Source: Arcuatula senhousia
Lineage: Eukaryota; Mollusca; Bivalvia; Mytilida; Mytilidae
Reading direction: 5' to 3'
Assembly: GCA_963971305.1 (NCBI GenBank)
Contig: OZ020305.1
Location: 10,325,001 to 10,389,000 of the forward strand
Length of the DNA stretch: 64,000 nucleotides
The translations under genes were made by a program, and so were the position numbers. This document shows, piece after piece, positions 1,986 through 58,400 of the stretch (its first letter is position 1; the number at the start of each line of letters is the position of its first letter). The notes under the pieces were generated by a model, which was not told the DNA's origin, made no database searches, and saw only the letters and a program-made list of their open reading frames with translations.

Positions 1986-2445
1986 ACACCTGTCAAGCAC
2001 ACTACATGCTTATATTTCATAAGAGACTCATGAGAAAAAAGGATACGAATTCAATGTTTTAGTAAAATCTTTGCATTTGGTATGTTTTGGCAGAAATATT
2101 GATAGCTTGATAGTAACTTTAAAACGTTAAATTTTCACTTTGTATCCACTGTATTATTTATAAGCACCACAGCGATCAGGTATGTCGGTTCTGTGTGGTG
2201 ATACAACTCTAAATCATTCATTGTTTTGACGTGGGGTGTCGGATTTAGGACTGACGTATTTGATTCTTTTACATCAATCGATAAATGTTTCTTAGCTAGT
2301 TGTCAGTAACTTCGAGTGTTCCCAAGAGAGTTCCTCCTCGTCTTGTTGTTTTCGTACAGTATTTTGTCTTATGTTCTCTCTTGTTGAATTTAATTTTTGT
2401 CGATTGAGTTTTACAGTGTGTTTTATATGTATGCTTTGTGCAAGC

Positions 2446-2524
2446 TTATCAGTAGGGGGAAGGTTGGATCCAAAAAACTAGTTTAACCCCGCCACATTTT
2501 ATATGTGCCTGTCCTAAGCCTAAG
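2446..2524 (-). repeat. Terminal piece of dispersed repeat family E
   Basis: This 75-bp stretch, which includes a GGGGGAAGGTTGG run and a CTGTCCTAAGCC end, reappears in opposite orientation at 26400-26470. There it forms the end of a longer dispersed repeat. Here it abuts the truncated LINE at 2532. From 1986 to 2445 nothing is recognised. Confidence 0.55.
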
Positions 2525-2531
2525 CCGAGAT

Positions 2532-4014
2532 TAAAGCGGGAGTCCCGCAAGGTTCAATATTGGGACCCCTATTATTTTTATTATTTATAAATGACATTGT
2601 CGTAGAAATTCAGGCTGACTTGCGGCTGTTTGCAGACGACACTAGTATTTTCTTAATTGTTGAAAATCCAGTGCGGTCGGCAGAGATCCTCAATTCCGAC
2701 CTGAATTCGCTATATGAATGGTCCAACAAATGGTTGGTCACGTTTAACCCTCAAAAAACAGAATGTATGACGATTTCTAGAAAATCAAATAAGCCCATTC
2801 ACCCCCCACTTTTTATGAATAGAGAGGAACTACAAGACGTCACAAATCACAAGCATCTTGGTATAGTACTATCAAACAATGGACAGTGGAATGCGCATAT
2901 TAACAGTATTGTTGATAAAGCGTATAAACGTCTCAACATATTGCGTAAATTCCGTTGTATACTTGACAGAAAAGCACTTGAAAATATTTACTTATCCTAT
3001 ATTAGACCTCTATTGGAATATGGAGATATAATCTGGGATACAACTACTAAGTATCTTGAGAATAAACTTGAAGGAGTTCAGCTTGAAGCCGCCAGAATAG
3101 TAACTGGCGGCTCCAGGCTGACATCTAAACAAAAACTATATAAAGAGACAGGTTGGACTAAGTTGTCTGAAAGGAGGAAAGCTCATAGACTTATCATGTT
3201 TTACAAAATGTCGAACGGTTTGTCTCCGGGCTACCTCCATAATATGCTACCGAACATAGCAGCAGATCAACATAACTATAACACACGTAGATCTCAAAAT
3301 GTAGTAGAGCCTCGAACAAAAACCAGGTTCTACTCAGACTATTTCTTACCGTATACCGTAAAATTATGGAACAATTTGCCTCCTGACGTAAGAAACTCAA
3401 AATCCGTTAGCATCTTCAAAAAGCGAGTTCTTTCTCAGCAAAGTGTTCCAAAATACTATTGTGCTGGCAGCCGTCGAGGTCAAGTTTTGCACGCTCGTTT
3501 ACGTATGGAGTGCAGCTCCTTAGCTGAGCATTTATTTTCAAGAGACTTAGTCAATTCCTCATTATGTGTGTGTGGCGAAATAGAAAATTCTGCACATTTT
3601 TTATTAAATTGTACTCGTTATATAGACTTGAGAAACGGCACATTTCTCTCTCTAGATTTACCAATCACCGTTGATTGTAATACACTTCTTTTTGGTTCAC
3701 AGGCCTTAACAGATGAGCAAAATTCCCAATTATTCTTACAAGTACAGAAATACTTAGTTAATTCAAAACGATTTACATTATAAGCCTCATTATATTACAT
3801 AATTACATTTAACTTGTACGATTCAGTTATTGTATACCCCTATATCAAATCTTTATTGATTACTTATATATTAGTCAGCAATTTCATTCTTGAGCGTGCA
3901 TTTCTATCATTTTGATACTTGTAAAGTTATTATTAAGGAGACGGATATAAAAAAGCTTGCCTTGTTTCCGAATCCTTACATTGAAATATATTGTATTGTA
4001 TTGTATTGTATTGT
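2532..4014 (+). mobile_element. 5'-truncated non-LTR retrotransposon (LINE) with intact 3' part of its reverse transcriptase
   Basis: An open frame enters at about 2532 in the RT motif GVPQGSILGPLLF and continues to a stop at 3783. It carries the catalytic FADDT box about 35 residues later, then a thumb region and a C-terminal Cys-containing segment (CVCGEIENSAHFLLNC). The endonuclease and the N-terminal half of ORF2 are missing, which is typical of aborted target-primed reverse transcription. A 200-bp untranslated tail ends in five TTGTA units (about 3985-4014), the kind of microsatellite tail some LINE clades use. A second damaged member of what looks like the same family lies at 38490-40113. 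The clade is not assigned. Confidence 0.85.
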
Positions 4015-4187
4015 AGTCTTTACATCAATAAAATACTGTTTAAACTAAGCCAGGAAACTTTGCCAAAGCCTTTGTTTGTCATTCTGTGTTAACTGTTCTA
4101 TGTCAAGAATTGGGTCTTTCGTTGATGATTTAGGGATTGGTTTTGAAACTTTTGTATTGTATTATAAGTCTTGGGCTAATGCATATA

Positions 4188-4332
4188 CAATAATAGTACA
4201 CTGACTCGACATAAAATTTTTATACGGATGAGGCTTAGAAACAGGAAAACGCGAGGGTCTCCCGAGCGTTTTCTTGTTTCGAGCCGAATTCGTATAAATA
4301 CAATTTTATGTCGAGTCAGTGTACTATTATTG
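4188..4332. mobile_element. 145-bp fold-back element (long imperfect hairpin)
   Basis: The outer 31 bases (CAATAATAGTACACTGACTC onward) are repeated as a near-perfect inverted copy at 4302-4332. The interior continues to pair (GAAACA...GAAAACGC with GCGTTTTC...GTTTC), so the whole element can fold into one long stem with a small loop near 4257. No coding capacity. It is probably a tiny inverted-repeat transposon or fold-back. Confidence 0.65.
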
Positions 4333-6240
4333 TGTTTATACTGCAATATTTTGTATTTTCTTTGGAGTATTCTTTATTTTAAAAAAACACAAATAAAAAA
4401 ATCGAAAAATGATCCTACCTCGGGCCCCTCTCCTAATATGGTCATAACACCTGTGTCGCCAGGTAAGGGGCACACTGTATAACATGGAATGGTTTATGTA
4501 CTATGACACAAATGTTCATGGTCTAAAGTAAATTAATGTAATGAAATTTGAAAAAAAAAATAGAATAAAAATAATATATTTATACTGAAGCATAAATTTA
4601 AAATTAGAAATTGAATGCTACCGTTTTTTTTAACTAATATGCGCCTTACATGTAAGAATGCAGCTTAATATCATTATGCTAGAAATAAAAAAAAATAAAA
4701 ATAATTGTTTTTCTTGGAATAAAATGTAATACATTTATCAAATACATTCGGCGTTATAAATATTAAGATTACATATTTTTATCATAAGTATTTTAAATTC
4801 GGGTATTCAATTCAACGCATTAATATTTACACCTGTCAATCAAAAAGCACGTGGAGTCCGTGCAACTGCAAACTCAACTAGCTCTCTCTATATATGTTGT
4901 TTACCGGTTTATACGGATTTGATAGTAGTTGCCTACATAAATTGGGCATATTTAATTACATGATAGAACATCCAATTATTTCCCACCCATTTTTTAAGTT
5001 TATAATTTTAATTTCACCTAACAAATACTTTTCTTGAATTTATTTATACGGGAATAAACGGTTAATTTAATTTTGCCGATTTCAAAATTTCAAGGAGTAA
5101 CCTCTCATCAACATCATTCACGTCAAAACATTGGAAGATCAATAACAAGAACTATGAAAATGCATTTGTACAAGTACTAGTAATCAATACCAAAATGTTC
5201 GAACAGGAAAGCCAAATCAAGGACCACGGATATCTGTATTCTAATTCCTTGCTTCTGTCCTGACTTCTCAATCCGAGTTGCATGAAAATTTTCACATACT
5301 ATCCTTTTTAAAATTATATATTAAATAATTGGTGATTTATGTGGTTTTAATCGTCATTCCGGACCATGAAAATTCTTTAACAGCATTAGGAACAAATTCG
5401 TAGAGATCTCTGCTAGAGCGAATAACCCGCTTTCGATCTGTGCTCACTAATACCAATATTCATTTCCCCACTCATACGAAAGGTTTCTTTTATTTATACA
5501 TATTGATTAGAGTTAATTTAATTTGATTTAATTCTTTAATGTAGCTGATGTGTCCTAGAATGCAACCCCCCAACAAAAAAAAAAACAAAAAAACACTGTG
5601 TTTGTATAGAGGTTGTACTGCTAATTTTGTGATTTACAAATTATCAAGTTCCATAAAAAAATAATATAATAAGGTATCCCTTATAAAGGGGCTTGTGTGG
5701 CGGAATCTTCATGCTTGAATACCACACTATCGGTAATTAGCCAATTACCAATAAAATTCTTCTTTTCTAAATATTTGTACCATACTATATTCGACCTTGT
5801 TTTACAGCATGCCTCGGAAAGGGGGCGTGTACTAAAAGTGATATACTGTCACTGACCGTATATCACATATCGATATACGGTCACTGTAATTTGACTGCTC
5901 AAATAGACCGATTGCAGTATAAAAGACGGTAAGCAGTGACCTATGGTCATGCTGAAGACGTCTTGCTGTTTTCCGTTGTGATTTTTTGAATAACTGTTTG
6001 TTTATGTTTGTTGTGTCGCGTACACTTATTCCACATCTCAATATCGTCTACATTTAAATCAACCGTTTTTAATAATTTCAGAAATGGAATGATCTCGAAT
6101 AGGTCCTTTGATTTTTAAAGGGTTTTCGATTTTTAACTAAAGCCTGCTAAAGGCTTAGACAGGAAGGAACTACCTAGAGTTTTCACTAAGACTAAATATT
6201 ATTAAATTCCATGTATAGACCAAATTCTGACCCTCGCTAT
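4333..6240. other. A+T-rich DNA without recognisable genes
   Basis: No coding frame of substance is present. The only structure I see is an 11-bp inverted repeat (TGACCGTATAT at 5853, its complement at 5873) separated by a 9-base loop, and a short A-rich run near 5575-5597. Confidence 0.5.
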
Positions 6241-7680
6241 ACCGGTATTACTATTTCGAGTCGGTTGTGCACGCGTGGGTTCCGTTTCCAGGAGCGGACG
6301 GAATGTTGCTGCACGGCAGGGGAAGGTTGACAATTGGAAAGTTGAAGTCATCACGTTTGTCATTGAGCTTTGTTGGAGGCTTTCCTTGAGAGTCTCTTTC
6401 GAGATGGAGATCTATGTGTGAAGCAGACTTCCTTGTATCCGTTGTGTCCTTTGTCTCAGGTTCCTGGGGGTGTGTGGGATGCAGGAGGTCGCCAAATAGG
6501 AAATTGTTCAGTGAAGGGACGTCGTCGGTGTAGCGGAGAGGAGGGTTTGAGGCCGACTGAGGAGAGAGCCGGTCTGTGGTCTATTTGTCTGGAACAGATT
6601 GAGGGAGGTCCGCTTCTTGTGAGTGAAGAAACAAATCACCAATATATAATGATGACCTTCCATCCCTGTATTGGATTCCGACATTACATAAAAATCCATA
6701 TGGTGACAAACAGCGTGTCATTGCAGGGTTATCAAAATGCACAACTAAACCTGACTTCAATACTGACGACAATAAAATCCGGCCACCAGAAATATTACGA
6801 TTGTTGTTATTCTAAAAATGGTGTCGATCAATTATGGGTCCTGAAGAATTCGAAAGAACTAATGGAGATTCTTAACTCTTAATCAGTTTCATCTTGCAAC
6901 AGCGTCAAAACTTTCTATTTCTCCACTCTTAACACTTCTAATAAGCGCAGCTTTTTCAAAAAATAATGGAAAACGCAGGTACAACTATCGATTATACTAA
7001 GACTTACTTTGTCATCAACGAGTCTAAGAATAAGAACAAATTTACAGACGATCAAATTATTGACATGCTCAATATTATTATCGGCAACATATTAATTCAG
7101 TTTGGTGGACGTTATTTTCAGCAAACAATAAGGATTCCAATGAGCACTAATTGTGCACCTTTGCTTGCTGATTTGTTTCTTCATTCACGTGGGCGAACTT
7201 TTTGCAGTCTCTTCTGTACAAGAGGAGATCGTGGACTGGCTCTTTCTTTTGGCCTCACTTTCCGGTGTATTGGTGGTGTCCTTTCGCTGGGCGGTTCTCG
7301 GTTAGGTGGCGTTCTCCATCTCATGTATCCCCGGAACTTGAGATAGGGAACACGGCGATTCCATTTAGTCTGTCGTGTTTGGATCTTCATCTCAAGGTGG
7401 GCTTTCGGGGAAGGCTTTCGACAGGGCTCTGTGGCGGGCGTGGTGGCTTCGCCTTTCCGGTTTTCGGCTTTCCCTTCTTGTGCGGCAGCATTCCATCCGC
7501 TCCAGCTTGTGGATTTTGCGTATCACAATTGATCCGTTGTTTCAGGGCTTGCGGGAGCTGCATCGATTTCCTTGGCGGGGCGTCACGTTTGACACGGGGG
7601 CTGCTGACGCGGGGCTGTGTTGCTCATCGGTTGCTGTCTTCACTCGAGAAATTTTACACCAAGCACTAGGGAGACAAATA
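6240..7680 (+). pseudogene. Penelope-like retroelement reverse transcriptase, decayed and partly A-to-G hypermutated
   Basis: From about 6660 the + strand encodes pieces of the RT characteristic of Penelope-like elements: a WIPTLHKNPYGDK-like segment, a KNSKEL segment near 6850, then GGRYFQQTIRIPMSTNCAPLLADLF at 7105-7180. Frames change between pieces and stops intervene. From 7185 to about 7640 the same protein continues, but with Tyr to Cys, Asp to Gly, Asn to Ser or Gly, and Lys to Arg or Gly at almost every adenine-rich codon. The catalytic box that should read YIDD reads CIGG (7266-7277). The block is stop-free because TAA and TGA also become TGG. The C-terminal thumb (APACGF, SQLIR, FYTKH) is recognisable to 7669. 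No GIY-YIG endonuclease is seen. 6240-6640 is similarly adenine-poor but not clearly alignable. Confidence 0.75.
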
Positions 7681-7681
7681 T

Positions 7682-7830
7682 GAGGGGGCGGACAGGGGGA
7701 CGGGGGTTGAGGAGGCGGGGAGCGGGGGTAGAAGGGGCGGGGAACGGGGGTGAAGGGGGTGGAAGGGGCGGGGAGCGGAGGTGGAGAGGGCGGGGAGCGG
7801 GGTGGAGGGGCGGGGAACGGGGGAAGAGAA
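7682..7830. repeat. G-rich minisatellite
   Basis: About 150 bp of GGGGCGGGGAGCGGGGG-like units on the + strand, nearly free of T. It could form G-quadruplexes. Open frames across it on both strands (Gly/Arg-rich or Pro-rich) are artefacts of composition. Confidence 0.8.
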
Positions 7831-8024
7831 CCCTCCTGTCCATCCCCAAATATGGGATTCATTCTGGAATATTTGTTAGAAAGACACAGTTTACATATTT
7901 CAAAATTTGACAACATTTGGCTGTCTCTTTAAAATTTGATAATTTTATCTGTTTGGTCATTTTTGATTTCTGTTTTTGTTTGATCAAATCTAATATTCTA
8001 CCGGTTTTCCAAGTTTCCTATCCC

Positions 8025-8070
8025 TTGCGTGCCTGATGAAGGTTAATCCAGAAAAGCGCTTCACACGCAA
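8025..8070 (+). ncRNA. Hammerhead ribozyme motif, Penelope-associated type
   Basis: CTGATGA at 8033-8039 is followed by a short stem-loop (GG-TTAAT-CC), GAAA at 8051-8054, and a two-base stem III (AA/TT) around the loop GCGC. The cleavage triplet TTC ends at 8062. Stem I pairs TTGCGTG (8025-8031) with CACGCAA (8064-8070), seven contiguous pairs. Two defects are visible: a C/A mismatch at the base of stem I and an A/A mismatch at the base of stem II. It lies about 350 bp beyond the Penelope RT remnant, as expected for the ribozymes carried by these elements. Activity may be reduced. Confidence 0.7.
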
Positions 8071-9731
8071 TGAAATTTTGCTGTTGTACATTTATCAAAA
8101 ACATTTCAATATGTGGATCGTGTCTTTCTGGCACATATTCCATATTCTTTCTTTTTTTATATTGCAGGTGGGTGCGGGTGTTGGTTTGTCATATAGTTTT
8201 GTTTTGTCTTCCTTTGCCGAATTTGAATACTGAATTGGAAATAAGCTTTGCGATGGGTATGCTACCCGGGGATCTACTTGCTATTATTCAGATAATATGA
8301 GTGTGTCGTAGGAATGGGTCATGTTTTTGCAACCAGTTTGTCTTAAACAAGTTATCTTTTTCACACCTGCATGCTGTCTTGAACAGGGTAACAATTTCCA
8401 TATTGGCACTCTGCTGTCAAGCTTTCATGATTGATGCAATGGAATACAGGAAGAACACATCTGAATATAACATTATATAGCATGGAAAATGGTTCAAAAA
8501 TTGAGTACAACACACTATATAAAATGTCTTAAACGGGATCTAGTTATTGCCGTTTTTGTCTTAAACAGGGTGTATTTTTTTTTTCATTTTTCGGTCTTAA
8601 ACAGGGTCCATTTTTAAGGGCTATAGGCACAGTATTATTAAAAATATTGGCAAGTAGCCCCCCCCCCCCCCCCCCCCCCGGAGTGCTATAGCATACAGAA
8701 TCCACATTCTCTTCCGGAGCACATGAGTTCACTTTCATTACGACTAGAGTTCTATATGTTTTCTGTTTCTTGTCCTGTTCTTGTTGGTACGATTGGGTTA
8801 TAAATACTTACAATTCTAATCAGCAACCCCAAAATATAAATATGCGATGTACTTAACATATGGCCCCTTCTTATCTGAAAATTTAATATAGATTGTTAAG
8901 AAATTGTCCCTTCAAATTTTCATTTTTGTGGAAAATGCAAAAAATGTTTATGGGTTATGAATAGACAGGGCTGAGAAAAATAAATTTCTTCAGGATAGGC
9001 CCTGAATCCATGGCATGTCCGTATGATGGACCTATCCCCCCTTTTTCCGAGATACAAATCCAGTAGTACTGGTCAGGGGCGAATCCAGAGGTCGGAATAA
9101 GGGGGGCGTAATGGCTAAAAATGTCAGATTTTGATGAAAATTTGAAGTAGCTTGGTCAATTTTATACACAAAAAATTAAAATTTCTCAATGAAAGGGGGG
9201 CGTACGCTCCCTCCGCCCCCTCTGAATCCGCCATCATGTGAGTACCATAGACCTGACTGTTCTAATAATATACAGGTCTTTGCTTTGAACAGTACTTACT
9301 ATGCAATTATCTAACGTTAACAGAAATCGGGACAGAAATCAAGTTTGTTTAGAATCCTCATGTGGCCCCATGTGCCCTTTGCAAGGAATCAAGACTACGT
9401 TGCACTGAAGTACTTTTTTATAGGTATAAATTATAAATACACAGATAGTCTATAGTCTAATTTAAAAAGATAGTCTAATTTAAAAAGATTTTCAAATAAA
9501 AGAGTGTGATGTTTACTTGTAAGTACGCATTATATATATACCGTTTTAACATAAGTACGACGCACAAAATCGTTATACCATAAATTCGTTTCGTCAACAA
9601 TTCTTCGATTTTGAAGAACCCGTATGACGGAGGTCAAATGTTCACATTCTTTGTTGAGAGGAGTGCGAGGAAGCACGCAAAATACGAATAAATTTTGATT
9701 AAATTACGGCTTGTTTCATGGAAAATATATT
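8071..9731. other. A+T-rich DNA with simple repeats and one small dispersed repeat
   Basis: Contains a run of 22 C (8658-8679). A short repeat at about 9075-9232 begins GGGGCGAATCCAGAGG and ends with an imperfect inverted copy (CCCCCTCTGAATCCGCC). Related wording occurs at 18165-18330. No gene is recognised. Confidence 0.5.
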
Positions 9732-14384: not shown

Positions 14385-14423
14385 AGATTGGTCCTTGAGA
14401 TGTTGGTTCTATGAAGACCCAGC
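14385..14423 (+). promoter_or_regulatory. 5' untranslated start of the first coding exon of gene A
   Basis: A pyrimidine-rich tract and TTTTTCAG end at 14384. The exon then has an out-of-frame ATG at 14400 that stops after four codons (a minimal upstream ORF), and an in-frame TGA at 14412. This makes ATG 14424 the first usable start. Confidence 0.6.
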
Positions 14424-17187
14424 ATGCAGGATAGAAAAGAAAGCGAATTTAATCCTTTAGACATACTAGCAACAGCTGCCGCATTGAAACAAACAGATAA
14501 AAAAGAAATAAAGCCCAAAATAGTCATCGTTAAACCTAAAGAAGGAGCCAAAATCATTAACCCAAAACCTACTTCTAAATCTGAAAATGAGAAAAAGGAA
14601 ACTCCAAAACGTTTTAGTGTGTTGACCACTTCAAGCTTCGTACAAGATGGAGTTAAGAAGGTTAAACTGAAAATAAGTCCTGAGTTGGAAAAAATGCTCA
14701 ATGAGCACAACTATGGAAGTATACAAAAAGTAAATAGCGGAAACAAAGCGTTTAAGTTACCAGATGTTTTATCCCTTGGGGGTCAGGACAAGAAAGTCAT
14801 TGTGAAACTGGTGGAAAAATCTGGTGTTCATTCCAACCGTGACAAAATATTGACAGGTGTAAATATTAAAGGAGATAAAAATAGCCCTGGGGAAAACCCA
14901 GTCAACCATACAAACAATGATTATCACAAGGAAAATAAAACTGACATTGGAGAAACACAAAGCAATCGGTCAGAGTGTTTAGATACGTTAGGAAAAGGAA
15001 TTTCTAAAGACAGTGTAAATCCATTGAATGAGGAATATGAAGAGGAAAAAGACCAGTGTGTAAATACATTAAAGGAGGAAGACATTCAACCATCTACAAG
15101 TTTTTCTGGATTAATATTTAACCCTCAAGCAGAAGAAAGTAAAGAACCATTATGCTCTAAGTCAGAAAATATATCAGACAATGTTACACAAGAATCTGAA
15201 GATTCTAATGGTCTAGTTGGACAAGGATTAAATTCATTGGAAAAAGATCAAGATAGCGTGGACACTTGTTCTGAGGCGATCTATAAATCGTTAGTTATTG
15301 ATGAAAGAGGAGATAAGGCTTGTTTCTCAGTACCTGTCTGTAAACCTGTGGTGGAGGATTTTGATGTTTGTACAGAGAGAATAGATACTGATATTAGATC
15401 ACCGGTATATGAGGATATTGATTTAAATGATTCACAACATAAAACTCCACCCAATGATGAAAAACTATTGGAATCAAATACAAGTAAGGATCAGATTCTT
15501 AAAATAGATTCATCATGTGAGAATGATAAAATACTTCTGAACCAAGACGTACAGTTATTGACAAATGGAGAAAATTCAATATCTTCAGCGGTAAAAGATA
15601 GAACAAACACAATATTGGAGAAAGATGAAGAAAATCAATATGGTGATAACAAGAGTCTACCAGGTATAGAAGAAACAGGTGTGAACAACACAGACAGATG
15701 TGACATGGGCAAATCACAAGTTCTTGATAAGGTACAGGCAACATCCTACTCAGAAAGACGATTTTCACAAAACAGCAGCGAATCTGGATCTGGAAGTCCA
15801 TCAGCAAGTGATGATAGACCAAAACTTCCATTTTCAATGATCGACCATGAATATTGTGGAAAGTTCTGTGAAGACTCATCTGATATAAAAGAAAGTAATA
15901 GTCAAGTATCGGATATTTCATTTGTTAATGAGTTTTCTCAAGATAGTGGATTTAGTGACTCTGGTCTCTCCCCTGATGGATTAGAGTCCAGGACATTTCG
16001 GCGGGACAGCCCATCTCTGATACCAATTCGATCCGACATGCTTCCATCATTTGACTTGAATGAAATCAACAAGGCAAGGGATGCTATCGTAGCAATTGCT
16101 AATGCTAACAATGTAACATTTACAAGTGACAATGTTTCACCAACTAAAACATCGCCAAAGGTGGGGAAATTTTCTATCGGAACATTTGCATCAGTTTGTA
16201 ATTCCTCTTTAGGGCTACAGATTCCAAATAAGAATCAAGCTAGTTCTAGCCAAAGGATTGTAACATCCCTCTTAACCAACAAACCTTGTCCTCAAAATAA
16301 GATGATTAATACTGGAGCCATGGGGTTGATTGACCATATCGAACACGATCATGATTATAGTCTTCATCAATCAGCTAAACCAAGTAACATTCCATTTCCA
16401 GTGCATAAAGTTGATAAAGAAGTCACTGGCAAGGGAAAGACAAAAGAGAGAAAAGGAGATGGAAGTGACAAGAGGAATCGACGTTCTCACAGCTCGGAGG
16501 ACTCCAAGGAGGATAAACTGTTCAACATGATTACAAGTGATAATGAAAAGAAATTGAATAAACAAGAAAAGTTGACAGCTGACCTGTTAAAAACTGGAAG
16601 TTCTGATTCAAAACTTAAAATTCAAGGAAGTTATAAAGATGACTTTGTTTACTTTCTAAATACAAATTTCCGTAGTAGAAGACGTACTAGTCAAGATCTA
16701 CCTCCTCCGATTCCACCTGATAGGATACTTGTCCCACTTCCAAAACCAGGGGATATAATAGTACCTCATTTGACAAATGAAGACTTGGAAGCTATTAAAT
16801 TGGGGAAGACAGTCACTTTGCCGTCTGGGCAACAAATTTCTGGAAATGCTCCAATACCTTCCCAAGCTCCTCCAGTGACTGTGGTTCCAGCTCAGACCAC
16901 ACCCAAGACCAGCACAGGGATCGAAGATATGGAAAATTGTATTGTCAATACTATATTGAGTATGGAAAGTGACACTTGTTCTGATACAACTGATACTGGC
17001 TTGTTTAGTGCTGCTAATGACAGTTTTGGAATTAACTTCTCTGACCAACTTACGCCTGAACAGATGGAAATATTATATAGTGCTGTAGATGAAGTACAGA
17101 TGTGTGACAAGGTTGGAGGTGAGGTGGTTATGGGTGGTGACGTCACAAGCCAGGCAGATGGAAATCTTCAAGATTCTTCTAAAACAG
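14424..17187 (+). CDS. SKI/SNO-like nuclear protein, coding exon 1 (residues 1-921)
   Basis: This 2764-bp exon encodes a mostly disordered, acidic, serine/asparagine-rich region with no recognised enzyme domain. It starts at the only in-frame ATG after an upstream TGA. A basic, serine-rich stretch (residues about 665-700, KGKTKERK...KRNRRSHSSEDSKEDK) is a likely nuclear-localisation segment. A proline-rich segment with a conserved-looking GDIIVPHLTNEDLEAI follows at about residues 770-800. Near the end, SDQLTPEQMEILYSAVDEV (about 870-890) looks like a short helical interaction motif. The donor AAACAG/GTACAT leaves phase 1 and joins cleanly to 18743. The open frame that continues to 17363 is intron read-through. 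The function is inferred from the domains in exons 2 and 3. Confidence 0.8.
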
Positions 17188-18742
17188 GTACATATGAAAT
17201 ATTACTAGCAATTACATGTATTCAAAAATCTACATGTGCAATGTGCGTATCTGCTAGTTCTCATTCACTGACAGTCTTCACAATTGGGTTTACAAGCAGG
17301 GTCACTTTCTTCTCTATATGTATAATGGATATCTACATTTTGTACATGGTCATGATGGTCTAACTGTCTTGCACCCTACATGCCCCATTGAAATGCATCA
17401 ACAAAATTTTCATTAACATTCTTGATCTTTGCAACTACATGTACATGTACATGTACTTACATGTGCTGCAAGGCTCTTGATAATTTCTAAATTTGCATTA
17501 CCATTTCGTACAAAAAGCAATTTGATACCAGTTACATTGTACATGTATTTACATGATTTATCTGCTTCTTGTTTAGGGAACACTTTTAATGATATTGAAT
17601 GTTCATGTACATAAATAGATTTTGAAAATGATAGTTTTCCAGAAAACTACACATGTATGCCAAAGGCTCTAGTCTATTGGAGTGGAAAATAATTCAGTAC
17701 TTTCAGTCTTAAAAAAACCCAATTGCAGTATATGCAACTTTGAACAGGTTCTCTCTCATGAATAAACAACGCCTACATTGTACATACAGTACATGTAATG
17801 TACTTGTGTAAAATGGACAAAGGGAATTTAAAGTTAAATTATCACCTTTTTACGCAGCTATTTATCACATTTTCCTATCTTGTGCCCTCAATCAATAAAG
17901 CAATCAATAACTGACACCAAAACATGACTAATAGGATTTTAATATCTTAACACATTTTAAGATAAAGTTTTTATTTTCATGTAAATCATGTAAATAGGAT
18001 CTTTAACAAATTAGCTTAATAAATGTACATACATGTAGATTATTGTGGATTTTTTTTTTTTTGTGGATATCAGGGTTCATGGTCCCCCCAAATATTTGAT
18101 TGAACTATTCAGTCTTAGAAATAAACTTCTGAGACAATGTAGACATAAATGTATCTCCAAATTCAGAGGTGGATCCAGAAATTCCAAAAAAGGTTGCCCA
18201 CACCAGACTTGCCTAAGAGAGGGGCTGCTTAGGTCATGCTTCAAGGATTTCCTACATATGTATATTCAATCAAATTTTTCTGCCAAAAGAGGAGGCCTGG
18301 ACCGCCAAGGGCCCCCTGGCTCCGCCTATGAAATTTCATGGAATTCTTTTTGGTATATATTACTATGTATTTGTAAAGAAAAGTTTTCGAATTCTACATG
18401 TATGTAGATCTACTCAGTAAAATTACAGATGACCTTTATAACTTTTAAAGGAGTTTTGGGCCCAGCCCCAGGAATTAATAAATATTAAAGAGACAAATTT
18501 TCTTTTTTGTCTTCTAAATTGAAAATCATTACAGAGTACATGTTTTTAGTGGTTAAAGCTTTTCATGCATATTAAAGTGTTCAGTCTTTAATAGTACATG
18601 TACAGTACATGTATAAACTTGCTTAGATCGATGTTTTCAGCTGACTCCTTATTACATGTTAAGTTTGAGACAACATTACAGCCCTTTGGATTTCCAAAAA
18701 TGGTTTTTTTCTACACATGACATATTTGCAAATCTTTTTCAG
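17188..18742. other. Intron 1 of gene A
   Basis: A+T-rich with many TACATGTA motifs. A small dispersed repeat at about 18165-18335 (GGTGGATCCAG... to ...GGCTCCGCC) resembles the one at 9075-9232. Confidence 0.6.
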
Positions 18743-19247
18743 AAATGATGGAAAATGAGACTGTCCAGATGCATGAAGATGTAACATCCTCAGCAAAAAA
18801 ACTGGAAGGAGACGTGAAAGCTTTCCCAGAGCCCCAAGAGACCAAATTGGAGGAAAAGGACGATGGCGCCCCCTGGATAGTAACTGTTAGTATGTATTGG
18901 AACGACCTACCAGCTATCATGTTGGACAATATCCCTTTCATTAGATTAGTCGATATTCATAAACAGATTTTACCAGCTAAGGATACAGGGATTTTGAAAA
19001 AGCGATGTCAGCTGCTTGGAGTTGAGGTTAAGAACTGTACAGAGATGCAGAGATATTTCCTCGTTCAATACGGCAAAGCATTTAATTCTAAAAGTAACTT
19101 GATTATCAGTAAAGACAATGCAGAGTTTTTGGTGGGATATTATGTCAACCCCGTTACAAAATTGCCTCGAGTGGAGGAACATCGACCCAAACCTCGAGTG
19201 AGAAAAGTCTCTCGTCCTAGACCAAGACCACCAAGTCGAACTGAGAG
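18743..19247 (+). CDS. SKI/SNO-like nuclear protein, exon 2: Ski/Sno/Dac-like domain
   Basis: 505 bp, entered in phase 1 after TTTTTCAG and left in phase 2 before GTAAAG. Residues about 964-1056 follow the Ski/Sno/Dac pattern: a strand region (PWIVTVSMYWNDLPAIML), a helix (LVDIHKQILP), then LGVEVKNCTEMQRYFLV..GKAF and LIISKDNAEFL. These match the SKI spacing Leu-x5-Cys-Thr-x2-Gln-x3-Leu-x3-Gly followed by Leu-Ile-x-Lys-x-Asp-Ala-Glu-x-Leu. In SKI this domain mediates protein contacts in SMAD co-repressor complexes. A basic Arg/Pro tail (KPRVRKVSRPRPRPPSR) ends the exon and probably aids nuclear import or nucleic-acid contact. Family membership rests on motif pattern and needs a profile search. 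Confidence 0.75.
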
Positions 19248-20597
19248 GTAAAGAGAATGTAAATGACATACTTGTTGATAACCTTTGAATATTTTCTTAC
19301 ACAACATATGAATAATTATTTAAATTGAGATGAAATGCATGACCCAGTTTGTAATTTTCTTGGGCAAATCTTTCATTATTATCTCTTTTAAATAGAATTT
19401 TGCTGAAATTTTACAGCAATTTTCAAAGTTTGAATTAAAACATATCCTTTCAAAACCTAATAAGCCAAAATGAAATATGATTCCTGTGATCAAGGAAGAA
19501 TTTATTGATTTCTTTATAAACCATTTAACTTTGGATCCATACATTGACAAAGCAATAATTGGTTGCATAAACAAACTTGAACTTTAAATTTGCACTTTCT
19601 ATGCAAACAAATAATGATTAGTCTTTAATACAATAATATTTAGTTTCCTTAACAGGCTTTCATACTTTATGGTAACACCTTACAGAAACAATTTGATATA
19701 TGTGCATATTTTAAATATTGATAATATTAAGTTTGTAATAATTAAATCAACGAATACATTATTGTAGCATGTTGCTTATTTGCGTCATAATGTCTTTATT
19801 TTTGGTTGATTTACATGTAATCACATACATGTACAATTGGCCCTTGCCTTTCATGAAAGTAGCAGAGAATAGAATTTACCTTTTGGTCCAACATTTTTCT
19901 CCAAATTGGTTTCTTGATATAACTTTTAGACACTTTCAAAGATTTTCATGTCAGATACTTCAACACATTTAAAGAAAGACACCTACATGTACACAGTCAT
20001 GGAAATTAGCACAGGACAGGCAGTCCAAGGCCTGTAAAAACTCGTTCGATCTGGTGTTTTTGTGCCTTTTACAGGTCCGAATGTCCGATTGAAATTAGCA
20101 GTATTTTGAAAATAATGTGTTATAAATACTTATTGGACCTCTATATTTTCTTATGGTCCTGTGAATCTTGACCAATGATGGGACCGAATGTCCTGCCCCC
20201 AAAAATTCAAATTTCCTCGACTGTATACATGTACAAATGTATGTATTGTATCAATTTTTGGTCAAAGGTCAATGAAACATCGACTTGGAGAAATGTGCCA
20301 GCTCTGCTCTTGTTAAAACAAATTTTCAAAGGAAATGTAACTAAAAAAATATCAGAGTATTGAAAGCTTTAATTTATATTAGATGTAACTTGGTGTTGAC
20401 ATAACATTACAATAGACTGACAGCAGGACACAGAAATTCAAATCAAACATGAATATGCAAAGCAAATCACGATTCATAATGTTGTAGAAGTATTTGTATA
20501 GAAATGGTTCTTGTTTTCAACTGACAAAGGTCTGTACATGTATAAATGTTTGATTTATCATAAAAAACTTGATTTAAATTCCCATTGTTGTTTTCAG
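19248..20597. other. Intron 2 of gene A
   Basis: 1350 bp of A+T-rich DNA. 20020-20215 resembles a dispersed repeat fragment with several TCCGAATGTCC-like words. No other structure seen. Confidence 0.6.
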
Positions 20598-21714
20598 TGA
20601 CAAGCGAGATATTCCAGTTCCTCCTCCAGTTATCGAGCAGCTACCTCCACCCCCAGCTCCTTTGGGCAGAACAAGACATAAAAAAATTAACTTTCTAGAA
20701 CTTCTCAAAGGTGATACCTCACAAGATGTATCTGATACCACAGAGGAGAAAAAATCCGAAGGAAAAGTTTCTGTCGTAGTGGTTGATCCTCCCTCGGGAT
20801 GGAAAAAGTCAGACGATCATTCAAATGTGCGAAAGAAACGGTTGCATTCTGTGGATACGCTGAAAAAGAAATCAGAAAAGTGTCAAACAATTGAATGTTT
20901 AACGGACGAGGATATTGAAAATCGTGATGAAAAATCGCTAACTTGGCTTAGTAAGAAGCGTCAGAAGTTACCAATCAAGATGAGCAAAAAGTTAAAGAAG
21001 CCCGGCTCTTTGAAAGTCAAGTGGACAATATTTAATAAAGCAAAAAGTAAGAAACTGTCAAACAAAAAGAACCAGCGGGCAGTTCTTAGTGTTGTACATA
21101 AAGATGTATCGCCAAACGGTAGTCACATAAACAATATACAGCCAGGTAATGTGTTCATGGATTTATACAATAACAGTAACTCTCCCTGTGTTCGCTGTTG
21201 TACGTGTAGTAAGAATTTCACTATTGACGCTTTTCTTACACATCAACACGACGTCACAGACAATGAGAAACTTGTTCTTGTAGTCAGTCCACAAGCCCTT
21301 AGTCTCAGGGAATCATCGGAAGCCCAGAAAAAAATGTGGCGCAATTTCCAACTCAAGCGGAAAAGATTTAACAACAAGATTTCAGTGGTCCAGAATGGCC
21401 TGCAGAACAAAATACATAGGTTTCCAGTCAGACCGGACAATTCTGACAAAACCACACTTTTGGTCAGGCCACCAACAAACAAATCGGTGCGAATTAGCTC
21501 TCGGAAACGCAAACAAAAACAACTCTATCCTATTGAAAATTACTCTTACGGTGCCAATGCCAGACATTCTGAGATCAGTGATGAATTGTTGGTACCTTCT
21601 CCGAACAAAATGATTAAAGTGGGGCTATGTCTTGATGATAACACTGAAAATGTTGTAGCCAAATCTAATGGACCATTGTTGACAAGCTTCACTGCCTTAG
21701 AACATGATTTGTAG
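20598..21714 (+). CDS. SKI/SNO-like nuclear protein, exon 3: SAND-like Cys/His module and C-terminus
   Basis: The last coding exon starts in phase 2 after TTTTCAG and ends at TAG 21712-21714. It opens with a proline-rich stretch (VPPPVIEQLPPPPAP). A lysine-rich, likely NLS region follows (about residues 1190-1250, with KKRQKLPIKMSKKLKK). At about 1271-1304 the order FMDLYNNSNSPCVRCCTC then FLTHQH reproduces the SKI SMAD4-binding module, where a strand precedes Cys-x2-Cys-x2-Cys and a His-x-His about 13 residues later. About 215 residues separate it from the Ski/Sno domain, far more than in canonical SKI. SMAD4 binding is therefore plausible but unproven. The C-terminus (to residue 1461) is basic and then acidic, with no coiled coil seen. 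Confidence 0.75.
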
Positions 21715-27140: not shown

Positions 27141-28382
27141 GCTCACCTGACCCGAAGGGTCAAGTGAGCTATTGTCATCGTCATCCGTCCGTCGTCCGTC
27201 GTCCGTCCATTACTTTTCAAAAATCTTCTTCTCTGAAACCACTGAATGGAATTTTTCAAAACTTGGTCCAAGTATTAATCAGGGCATGGTGTTTAAAAAT
27301 TGTGTTCGGCTTTATGATTTGATAACAAACATGACCGCTGCTACTAAAAATAGAACATAGGGTAAAATCACATTCAAAGACTTATAACTTGAAAACTAGA
27401 ACAGATAGAAAAAATCTGAAGGATCTTAGGCCATTCAGAATCAAAAGCTCTACAAAAGTTTCCATTGGGTCGAAGTTGTCAGATGACCCCTAATAGGGGT
27501 TATGGCCCTTTTAAGGTCAAAATAGCGTTTTTTCATGTTTTTGCCCTATAGAATGAAAACTATTGCAGATAGAGAATAGCTGTTGCCTGCAAAAATGTTC
27601 AGCTCATTAAGCTCTACAAAAGTCTCTATTGGACTGAAGTTGTCAGATTACCCCTAATAGGGGTTATGGCCCTTTTAAGGTCAAAAATAGCGTTTTTTCA
27701 TGTTTTTGCCCTATAGAATGAAAACTATTGCAGATAGAGAAAAGCCGTTGCCTGCTAAAATGTTCAGCTCATTAAGCTCTACAAAAGTCTCCATTGGGTC
27801 CAAGTTGTCTGATGACCCCTAATAGGGGTTATGGCCCTATTGAGGTCAAAAATAGCGTTTTTTCATGTTTTTGCCCTTAAGAATAAAAACTATTGCAGAT
27901 AGAGAAAAGGTGTTGCTTGCTTAAATGTTAAGCACATTAAGCTCTACAAAAGTCTCCATTGGGTCGAAGCTGTCAGATGACCCCTAATAGAGGTTATGGT
28001 CGTTTTAAGGTCAAAAATAGCGTTTTTTCATGTTTTTGCCATATAGAATGAAAACTATTGCAGATAGTGAAAAGGTGTGTTTGCTTAAATGTTTAGCTCA
28101 TTAAGCTTTATAAAAGTCTCAATAGGGATGAAGTTGTCAGATAAGCCCTTATTGGAGTAATGGCCCTTTTAAGGTCAAAAATAGCGTTTTTTCATGTTTT
28201 TTGCCCTATTGAATGAAAACTATTGCAGATAGAGAAAAGGTGGGACTTGCTTTAATGTTCAGCTTATTTAGCCTCAGGATCGAAAGTCTCCGTTGTGTCT
28301 AAGTTGGGACTTGACCCATTAAAGAAGAGACCATTATGCCTTAAGGATCAGGTGAGCGATTCAGGCTCCTGGGAGCCTCTAG
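27141..28382 (+). mobile_element. Helitron-like non-autonomous element family A with about 166-bp tandem core
   Basis: Starts GCTCACCTGACCC, with CAGGTGAGC as the inverted match near the end. It finishes in the hairpin AGGCTCCTGGGAGCCT followed by CTAG and T, the hairpin-plus-CTRR end expected of Helitrons. The middle is five tandem units of about 166 bp (GAATGAAAACTATTGCAGAT at about 27549, 27716, 27882, 28046 and 28212). No Rep/helicase is present, so it depends on an autonomous partner. A longer sibling is at 56889-58400. Confidence 0.75.
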
Positions 28383-38489: not shown

Positions 38490-40113
38490 AAAAGTCATGG
38501 AACGAATAGTTTATAAACATGTTTTTAATCATCTGTCGAGTGACAATCTCATATACGAATACCAATCGGGCTTCCTGCCAGGGTTTTCTACTGTGCACCA
38601 ATTATTGGAGCTATATAGCAGCATACTTGATGGTCTTGAAAAAAAGAAACTAGCTGTTTTGTATTTTGTGACTTTTCTAAAGCCTTTGATAGGGTCTGGC
38701 ACAAAGGTCTGTTGCATAAAATGAAGGGATATGGAATAAATGGTGATTTGTTACTTTGGTTTTCTAACTATCTCTCGAATCGAAAACAAAACGTTATAAT
38801 AAAAAACTCGATATCACCACTATTAGGTATTAAAGCTGGGGTACCTCAGGGTTCTGTTTTGGGTCCCTTACTATTTATAATAAACATAAATGATATTTCC
38901 CACAAACTGACTTTGCTCACAAGATTGTTTGCAGATGATACATCATTCAGATTTTTGGGAAGTGACAACGAGCAAATACAGTCCGTTATCGAGCACGATC
39001 TAAATGAATTAGACCTTTGGTCAAAAAAGTGGCTCATGAGTTTTAATGCAAACAAAACAGAGGTTTTATTATTTTCAAATATTGAAGCTCCCGATCTGAA
39101 CTTTGCCTTAAATGGTCAAAGAATTCCCAATGTCACCTCCCATAAGCATTTAGGGGTTACTCTGAATCACGATGGTAAATGGAATAAACATATAGATAAC
39201 CTGATAACAAGCGCAATGAAGCATGTCAATATCTTACGTAAACTAAAATACAAATTGTCAAGATCTACCTTAGAAAGATTATACATATATCGTTTATATA
39301 AGACCGATATTAGAATATTCCTGTGAACTTTGGGATAATTGTGGCATAGTATATTCAAACAAACTTGAAAGTGTTCAATTAGAAGCAGCTAGAATCGTTA
39401 CAGGTGTACATATCTTTACTAACAAAGAACAGATTTATTGTGAAGGAGGCTGGGAAACCTTGAAAACTAGATGCGAACGTAGAAAATTACAGATGATGTA
39501 TACCATGGTAAACAATCTTGTTCCCCCATTTCTTTGTAGACTGACTCCCCCTAGTATTGGTAGCTTATCAAACTATCCGTTAAGAAATAGAGATGATCTT
39601 GTAATTCCATTTTGTCGATTATCTCTAACTACAGAATCATTTGTCTCATCTTCGATCAGAGATTGGAACAAATTAGAACCCTCTATATGAAATCTTCCCA
39701 ATATTTCAAAATTCAAAAAGGCTTTAAAAAACCAAAATTCTAGTCACTGTCCGTCTTTTAAATTACGCTCTTACGGGCCGAGAAAGTTAAATATCATATT
39801 AACACAAATGAGATGTGGCGCCACCTTCCTTAATTTTGATCTTAGCAGAGTAGGCATCGTGCAAGACCCTATTTGCAGATGTGGATATCAGCAAGAAACT
39901 CTCACCCACTTCTTTTTTGAATGTCCTCAATATGCGATAATTAGACGTTTACTATTTGAAAATCTATCGTTCCTGTCCCCTCAAACTTCACGGAACTTAT
40001 CTCTGTTTCTCACAGGCGATAACCATCTTTCCGAAATAGATAATATGAAAGTGCTGGATTATGTATTTGAATTTATCCTTCACTTCTATTTAGGCATTAA
40101 CACTAATGTCTAG
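38490..40113 (+). pseudogene. LINE reverse transcriptase remnant in gene B intron 1
   Basis: Pieces in successive frames read as one RT: VMERIVYKHVFNHL..YQSGFLPG (38497-38690), then a frameshift and GVPQGSVLGPLLF plus FADDTS (38712-39300), another frameshift near 39300, EAARIVTG and SSSIRDWNKLEP with a TGA at 39688, then a Cys-rich C-terminus (ICRCGYQQETLTHFFFECPQ) to 40113. At least two frameshifts and one stop inactivate it. It shares motif wording with the LINE at 2532-3783 but is more decayed. Confidence 0.85.
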
Positions 40114-56888: not shown

Positions 56889-58400
56889 AGCTCACCTGGA
56901 CCAAAGTCCATGTGAGCTATTGCCATCACTTGGGGTCCGTCGTCGTCGTCGTCGTCGTCGTCGTCCGTTAACAATTTTTAAAAAATCTTCTCCTCTGAAA
57001 CTTCTGAACAGAATTGAATGAAACTTGGTATGATTGATCCTTAGGGTGTCCTGCACCAAACTTGTGTTTCGATTTTTGATCTGTCAAAAAACATGGCTGC
57101 CGTTACTAAAAATAGACTAGGGGGGTCAGACTACTGTTTTTGGCTTATAAATCAAAAAGTATAAGAGATAGAGGAAATCTGAGGCCACGTCACTGATTCA
57201 GCATCAAAAGCTCTACAAAAGTCTCCATTTGGTCAAAGTTGTCAGATGACCCCTTATAGGGGTTACGGCCCCTTAAAGGTGAAAAATAGCATTTTTTCAT
57301 GTTTTTGGCCTACAGAATGAAAACTATTGCAGATAGAGATTAGCTGTTGCTTGCTTAAATGTTTAGCTCATTTAGCTCTACGAAAGTCTCCATAGGGTCG
57401 AAGTTGTCAGATGACCCCTTATAGGGGTTACGGCCCCTTAAAGGTGAAAAATAGCATTTTTTCATGTTTTTGGCCTACAGAATGAAAACTATTGCAGATA
57501 GAGATTAGCTGTTGCTTGCTTAAATGTTTAGCTCATTTAGCTCTACGAAAGTCTCCATAGGGTCGAAGTTGTCAGATGACCCCTTATAGGGGTTACGGCC
57601 CCTTAAAGGTGAAAAATAGCCATTTTTCATGTTTTTGGCCTACAGAATGAAAACTATTGCAGATAGAGATTAGCTGTTGCTTGCTTAAATGTTTAGCTCA
57701 TTTAGCTCTACGAAATTCTCCATAGGGTCGAAGTTGTCAGATGACCCCTTATAGGGATTATGGCCCCTGAAAAATAGCATTTTTTCATGTTTTTGTCCTA
57801 CAGAATGGAAACTATTTCACATAGAGATTAGCTGTTCCTTGCTTAAATGTTCAGCTCATTTAGTTCTACAAAATTCTCCATAGGGTTGAAGTTGTCAGAT
57901 GACCCCTTATAGGGGTTACGGCCCATGAAAAATAGTGATTTTTCATGTTTTTGTCCTACAGAATGAAAACTATTGCAGATAGAGATTAGCTGTTGCTTGC
58001 TTAAATGTTCAGCTCATTTAGCTCTACAAAATTCTCCATAGGGTCGAAGTTGTCAGATGACCCCTTATAGGGGTTACGGCCCCTGAAAAATAGCGATTTT
58101 TCATGTTTTTGGCCTACAGAATGAAAACTATTGCAGATAGAGATTAGCTGTTGCTTGCTTAAATGTTCAGCTCATTTAGCTCTACAAAAGTCTCCATAGG
58201 GTCGAAGTTGTCAGATGACTCCTTATAGGGGTTATGGCCCCTTATAGGTGAAAAATGGTGTTTTTGGCCTATAGAATGAAAACTATTGCAGGTAGAGAAA
58301 AGCTGTTGCTTGCTTAAATGTTCAGCTCATTTAGCTCTACAAAAGTATAGGGTCAACATCAAAACCAGGTGAGCATTCAGGCTCCTGGGAGCCTCTTGTT
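56889..58400 (+). mobile_element. Helitron-like family A element with seven tandem units, in intron 17
   Basis: Starts AGCTCACCTGG (then a GTC microsatellite at about 56938-56965) and ends CAGGTGAGC followed by the GGCTCCTGGGAGCC hairpin and CTTGTTT. Seven units of about 157-166 bp lie between 57190 and 58345. Three of them (near 57316, 57481 and 57648) are almost identical, so amplification is recent. Confidence 0.75.

Follow-up and report, generated by a model that had tools for sequence, protein, structure and literature searches.

A reverse-transcriptase locus of Arcuatula senhousia that probably descends from an RNA hairpin hyperedited by ADAR

Introduction

Why would a segment of a reverse transcriptase (RT) gene in an animal genome have lost adenine and gained guanine on one strand only? 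The segment lies at 7185..7640 of a 64,000-nucleotide stretch of DNA from the bivalve Arcuatula senhousia (Mollusca, Mytilidae; assembly GCA_963971305.1, contig OZ020305.1, positions 10,325,001 to 10,389,000 of the forward strand). The whole stretch is called the window here, and coordinates refer to it unless another locus is named. The RT belongs to a decayed element, labelled Penelope-like in the original prediction. The original prediction, made from the letters alone, had proposed ADAR-like deamination of adenosines in the sense RNA before reverse transcription, and had named an adenine-specific error of the RT as a second explanation. Our data make it highly probable that the locus derives from an RNA hairpin that was hyperedited by ADAR and would then have been reverse-transcribed into the genome.

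Results

The base counts by which the block had been recognized are exact: 7201-7620 contains 51 A, 101 C, 131 G and 137 T, and 6961-7140 contains 71 A and 53 T. The block is the adenine minimum of the 64 kb, since among 6,358 sliding 420-base intervals the 30 poorest in A all start within 7081-7401, as do the 14 with the lowest A/(A+T). The catalytic box was said to have changed from YIDD to CIGG, and CIGG is indeed read in the plus frame of the block; a simple motif match in 120 listed homologues gave YIDD in 89, no motif in 17 and CIGG in none. The block itself is thus real, but its limits had to be mended to about 7189-7646. The same strand is also changed in a second block, at 6263-6623.

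The A-poor block proved to be one arm of an inverted repeat and half of a larger structure. A minus-strand frame at 6251-6580 encodes the same RT segment; the open frames of both strands show that its A-coded residues are mostly intact, but with replacements of Ile by Thr and of Leu by Pro. The 5' arm (6255..6642, minus strand) is an inverted partial copy of the RT, whose breakpoint near 6255 was judged by eye on the alignment. The loop (6646..7167, plus strand) is the part of the forward RT copy upstream of the 3' arm; by homology to relatives this copy begins at 6646-6648, adjoining the inverted copy, whose inner end is at 6642. The 3' arm (7168..7545, plus strand) is the forward RT segment with the CIGG box, and its extension (7546..7646, plus strand) has no partner at the present locus.

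In the alignment core, where the 5' arm (6640-6262, minus) pairs with the 3' arm from 7168 onward, the differences from the 5' arm in its own sense to the 3' arm are A>G 51, G>A 5, C>T 45 and T>C 1, together with 27 transversions and 25 indel columns. Of these 102 transitions, 96 fit an A-to-G change on the plus strand (p=6e-22), and all 96 are G.U-type pairs if the plus strand is taken as RNA. The plus-strand RNA is predicted to fold into one long hairpin at -589 kcal/mol, against -401 kcal/mol for the minus strand. Among the 21 inverted-repeat diagonals of the window, strong polarity is confined to the pair that forms this hairpin (net 31 and 24; 6 in the next). The arms are missed by plain BLAST self-comparison and recovered by a purine/pyrimidine scan. 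They have 11 derived states in common over 365 sites, while 20 and 18 non-edit changes are private to one arm or the other, and so are likely of one lineage.

To which base the change belongs was read from relatives in the same genome. The reference comprised 45 loci of the assembly (43 distinct places, two taken twice), of which 45 cover the arms and 36 the loop. They were chosen by similarity to the window, the best 40 of 2,062-4,776 first-look candidates being scored in each search, and sites were counted only where at least 90% of the relatives agree. Tabulated in this way, the 86 substitutions of the 3' arm are dominated by A>G, which affects 58 of 106 A's; the remainder are C>T 7/91, G>T 6, T>C 4, G>A 4/54, A>T 3, T>G 2, A>C 1 and T>A 1. 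T>C is thus not as frequent as A>G, and the relatives lack the G-rich sequence; unedited copies of the RT segment exist in the same genome. The extension (scored over 7546-7640) shows A>G at 12 of 19 A's among 17 substitutions, and the 5' arm, in its own sense, T>C at 42 of 117 sites among 73 substitutions, which is A-to-G on the plus strand. The loop, in contrast, kept its A's: only 3 of 105 became G, among 21 substitutions. Across sites at which A could be followed, 111 of 229 in the arms are now G as against 3 of 101 in the loop (p=9e-19).

The protein sequences give the same picture. Against 120 listed of 950 relatives at E 1e-3, A>G alone accounts for 29 of 48 differing residues in the 3' arm and for 9 of 13 in the extension, as against 4 of 26 in the loop, and T>C alone explains 19 of 34 in the sense of the 5' arm.

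Three other causes can be set aside. Strand-blind GC drift, already argued against in the original prediction, is ruled out, because T/(T+C) in the arms (0.60-0.62) is close to that of the loop (0.61) and only A/(A+G) is low (0.32-0.37). A hairpin kept by selection through G.U intermediates is ruled out as well, since by comparison with the relatives it was A, not C, that changed. APOBEC editing does not account for the 3' arm either: the G>A and C>T counts given above are low.

The test of neighbour preference against ADAR, which had been suggested as a check, gave a clear order. Among the 229 arm sites (111 now G), the changed fraction by 5' neighbour was 0.80 for T (32/40), 0.61 for A (39/64), 0.44 for C (22/50) and 0.24 for G (16/68). 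This is the ADAR order T>A>C>G, and T or A against C or G neighbours differ at p=1.2e-7 when the 7 of 229 sites lacking an agreed neighbour are left out. The same order was obtained from a comparison of the two arms alone, without relatives (T 19/27, A 37/69, C 23/52, G 17/56; p=0.003). No effect of the 3' neighbour was seen in the arms (A downstream 26/63, other bases 85/166; p=0.19). This is also the preference of molluscan ADAR1 as described in the part of PMC6651903 that deals with it: in oyster and abalone the edited A chiefly follows T, A or C, and no marked bias exists in the downstream base. A passage of PMC5625713 reports G depleted upstream of hyperedited sites in both animal groups compared.

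Beyond the paired region, A>G changes extend to 7646, after which a run of A's is kept. As the 5' arm now ends near 6255, 7546-7646 is left without a partner, and none of the four stretches searched for one exceeded shuffled controls. Such an unpaired stretch suggests a formerly longer hairpin whose 5' end has been lost. The element continues with its A's kept at 7647..7657 (plus strand), as the alignment to relatives shows, and resumes at 8154..8264 (plus) and 8680..8788 (plus), the last recognized part, which reaches 8752 in most relatives and 8788 in a few. The intervening stretches 7660..8153 and 8265..8679 are missing from most relatives, which for the most part pass directly from 7657 to 8154, and both are therefore probably later insertions. 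The first of them holds a G-rich tandem array at 7695-7823 with 22-base units, in which 15 of 23 unit differences are A/G (gaps included, three overlapping comparisons); this array was perhaps edited too, or is merely GC-rich, as it is C-rich as well.

We then asked whether the genome contains further copies of this kind. A screen in which every A of the RT region of one relative was written as G, with the best 40 of 1,844 candidate places scored, was headed by C5:9566952 (620 bits), C9:37067967 (484), the window (483) and C14:4209809 (453), followed by a place at 442. The remaining rows were mostly at 73-74%. The rank of C14 is by itself indecisive, and base counts decide. In these copies, which were selected for A>G, A>G affects 109/263, 56/263 and 53/266 A's in C5, C9 and C14, respectively. 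The other transitions, in the same order, are T>C 6/314, 4/309 and 8/316, G>A 11/163, 10/161 and 8/163, and C>T 10/180, 10/177 and 8/182. Two unedited copies gave A>G at 0/266 and 1/266, but both belong to the set that defines the reference. C5, C9 and C14 have 30-34 non-A>G differences in common with one another and only 3-4 with the window arm, which places them in another sublineage. The neighbour preference is found again in C5 (p=0.0013), in C14 (p=0.011) and in the three copies pooled (p=2.3e-5).

C9 and C14 are close sisters, and two stretches of their alignment, picked after inspection of bins, differ in opposite directions. At 1501-1950 of L072, 67 sites have G in C14 and A in C9, with 6 the reverse and 6 T/C differences; at 2101-2400 of L072, 32 sites have G in C9 and A in C14, with 2 the reverse and 3 T/C differences. 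Judged from these counts, the two blocks had separate origins. 

The C9 locus (joined from L075, L071 and L076) also contains a head-to-head pair, 1852-2587 against 4316-5141. Where the neighbour pairs with the edited block, the differences are A>G 32, G>A 1, C>T 4 and T>C 9; over 831 bases they are A>G 57, G>A 9, C>T 15 and T>C 21. Both edited clusters of the forward copy fall inside the part capable of pairing, and only the forward arm is changed. The edited hairpin is documented for the window copy only. At the C5 locus (joined from L073, L070 and L074), 5152-5262 and 9256-9365 form a 113-base inverted match outside the RT copy that is 73% identical; in the BLAST self-comparison 10 of its 12 transitions have A>G polarity, and the purine/pyrimidine scan did not recover it. 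It is perhaps another edited hairpin.

As for the element itself, the label "Penelope-like reverse transcriptase" was not confirmed beyond a weak match to the general RT profile. All six relatives searched in Pfam match RVT_1 at E 1e-6 to 4e-4, all under the Pfam cut-off, and in NCBIfam four of four gave no hits other than to group II or Drt2 RT models, with scores far under the cut-offs. A search of solved structures with a 16-row profile gave no match at E 0.1. The Pfam scans of the six relatives revealed no GIY-YIG endonuclease, the open-frame listing upstream of one genomic copy revealed no further long frame of the element, and Rfam revealed no hammerhead ribozyme in the window at the gathering score, the window copy being truncated. 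Inverted head-to-head partial copies are present in the window arms and at the C9 locus. With the protein of the edited arm as query, no homologue was found at E 1e-3 among 37 candidates, and no relatives were found in viral contigs. Prokaryote contigs yielded five relatives (L001-L005; four named Bathymodiolus symbionts, one Candidatus Thioglobus) that are too distant for base counts; the RT family in these symbiont assemblies is probably host contamination.

Elsewhere in the window, two more RT open frames matching RVT_1 lie at 2524-3783 and 38640-39326. A high-copy repeat at 5500-5925 is about 93-97% identical over its full length to the seven copies compared; the final 125 bases recur at 100% identity in many places of the genome, so that it is probably a recent mobile element. 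Related tandem arrays occur 29 kb apart at 27352-28281 (about 165 bases) and 57086-58354 (about 158 bases), dense short palindromic repeats of the GATATCTTAT type at 1500-1960, and telomere-type CCCTAA-like motifs inside two near-identical segments at 760-890. Host gene exons span 14415-21714. For 14415-17060 the identity with two Mytilus proteins is 54-55%, which supports a molluscan host; the c-SKI Smad4-binding domain was recognized at 20578-21711.

Discussion

Taken together, a spared loop, a same-strand change of both arms, the order of neighbour preference and the conversion of nearly half of the A's fit ADAR hyperediting of a hairpin RNA. The ADAR-like deamination of sense RNA proposed from the first block is thus supported by the strand-specific A-to-G change and the ADAR-type 5' neighbour preference, but the proposal had overlooked the second arm at 6255-6642, with its same-strand change, and the spared loop. 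The change is found in genomic DNA, which makes reverse transcription of the edited RNA most likely. We propose that a head-to-head pair of copies was transcribed as a single RNA, the arms of which would pair into double-stranded RNA. ADAR would then convert nearly half of the arm A's to inosine, RT would read inosine as guanosine, and the new copy would be 5'-truncated inside the 5' arm. Such truncation would fit the partnerless 7546-7646, which later deletion could also explain. In rotifer Penelope elements, head-to-head is the commonest inverted arrangement seen and is ascribed to self-priming in a section of PMC3846280; an arrangement produced by self-priming would yield such hairpins naturally.

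Several observations weigh against an edited hairpin. A passage of PMC5625713 reports A enriched downstream of hyperedited sites in the animal group that includes invertebrates, and this enrichment is not seen in the arms. ADAR1 restrains LINE-1 without editing, as stated in parts of PMC12925331 and PMC5974252. At the window locus, no clear target-site duplication was found among direct repeats of at least 9 bases between 6180-6275 and 7660-9300; the sole direct repeat there, 10 bases long, AT-rich and located at 6197 and 8633, lies inside the locus and was not taken as one. The inverted junction is spanned by no other locus among the best 40 of 265 candidates, and hence has no parent or sibling there. 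No same-strand edited partner arm lies within 10.0, 8.5 and 9.0 kb around C5, C9 and C14, respectively, the head-to-head neighbour with which the edited block of C9 pairs is itself unedited, and the neighbour preference in C9 alone is not significant (p=0.11). Moreover, A>G states are in common above chance between C5 and C9 (37 vs 25 expected, p=4e-4) and between C5 and C14 (36 vs 21 expected, p=2e-6), with 17 vs 12 expected between C9 and C14 (p=0.06), so some of the A>G in these copies may have come by descent or have struck favoured sites. Together with the unedited C9 neighbour, this overlap makes a hairpin slightly less probable and an intermolecular duplex slightly more so.

Two alternatives draw on the same observations. 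In one, the A's would have been deaminated in DNA, for instance within the DNA:RNA hybrid of reverse transcription or in an R-loop, instead of in a double-stranded RNA hairpin. ADAR activity on DNA:RNA model substrates, at deoxyA-C mismatches and for mutant ADARs, is mentioned in a section of a review (PMC12925331) in which the effect on retroviral hybrids is stated to be unknown, and a passage of PMC10354150 describes an amphioxus tRNA-type deaminase that acts on DNA. C5, C9 and C14, without an edited partner nearby, would also be accommodated. However, a reverse-transcription hybrid would span the loop, which is spared, and the changes coincide with the two mutually pairing arms. We consider deamination in DNA quite improbable.

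In the other, the duplex would have been intermolecular, formed by sense and antisense transcripts and not within one RNA. This would likewise suit the three copies without a same-strand edited partner arm nearby, as well as the edits at 7546-7646 that are now partnerless. Both window arms are changed on the same strand, however, and the change halts at the loop from both sides, so that any antisense RNA would need to be complementary to both of these separate stretches but not to the loop between them. We give such a duplex the same slight chance as deamination in DNA, and retain the hairpin folded from a single RNA.

Diversity-generating retroelements replace A at random by any base. A comparable error of the RT encoded by this element would explain why the changes are at A, but in the 3' arm A goes to G (58) and hardly to T (3) or C (1), and the loop, a product of the same RT, is spared; the second explanation of the original prediction is not supported and has a negligible probability. 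Equally negligible is an artefact of sequencing or assembly from fold-back reads, for although nanopore reads are less accurate at inverted duplications (a passage of PMC7229812), it should produce mirror symmetry, one arm showing A-to-G and the other T-to-C when read on the plus strand, whereas both arms are A-to-G on that strand, a 5' neighbour preference is present, and C5 and C14 are A-to-G-rich without a comparable inverted partner.

ADAR hypermutation has precedents. In avian retroviruses, nearly 50% of adenosines are changed in an inverted-repeat region (a passage of PMC12925331), and ADAR hypermutation of Rous-associated virus and avian leukosis virus, reported in the mid-1990s, is also named in a passage of PMC8586724. 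The likeness lies in the A-to-G hypermutation; here, in contrast, it is found in an animal genome, in an element taken as non-viral, and in several A-to-G-rich copies. ADAR hyperediting of repeat double-stranded RNA in transcriptomes has the same clustered A-to-G changes with a nearby inverted partner and the same 5' G depletion (in part of PMC5625713), but it is normally seen in RNA against an unedited genome, whereas the change in the window is in the genome itself. Vertebrate APOBEC editing of retroelements likewise involves a host deaminase and strand-specific changes, as described in parts of PMC7760323 and PMC12548423, but it deaminates C and gives G-to-A, whereas the window shows A-to-G in arms capable of pairing. 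Penelope-like elements resemble the window locus as RT elements with a partial inverted partner (described in part of PMC3846280), and differ in the endonuclease and hammerhead features, which were not found here. In the literature searched, which covered few subscription journals, no report of A-to-G edited retroelement copies in an animal genome was among the matches listed.

RNA editing is usually regarded as non-heritable. With reservations, we lean towards the view that ADAR acts here as a germline mutator of retroelements, hyperedited RNAs of the elements having been repeatedly reverse-transcribed into a heritable archive of A-to-I editing in DNA. If so, such copies would be DNA records of single edited molecules, the window copy retaining one edited hairpin with its two arms and its spared loop, and the target sites and preference of ADAR on retroelement RNA could be read without RNA data. 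This would be an RNA-level counterpart of APOBEC editing of retroelements. A simple all-A-to-G query of one family member yielded three further copies; if such copies are common, past editing activity would be readable from assemblies, and ADAR would be a source of retroelement mutation and inactivation in molluscs, as in the CIGG box of this element.
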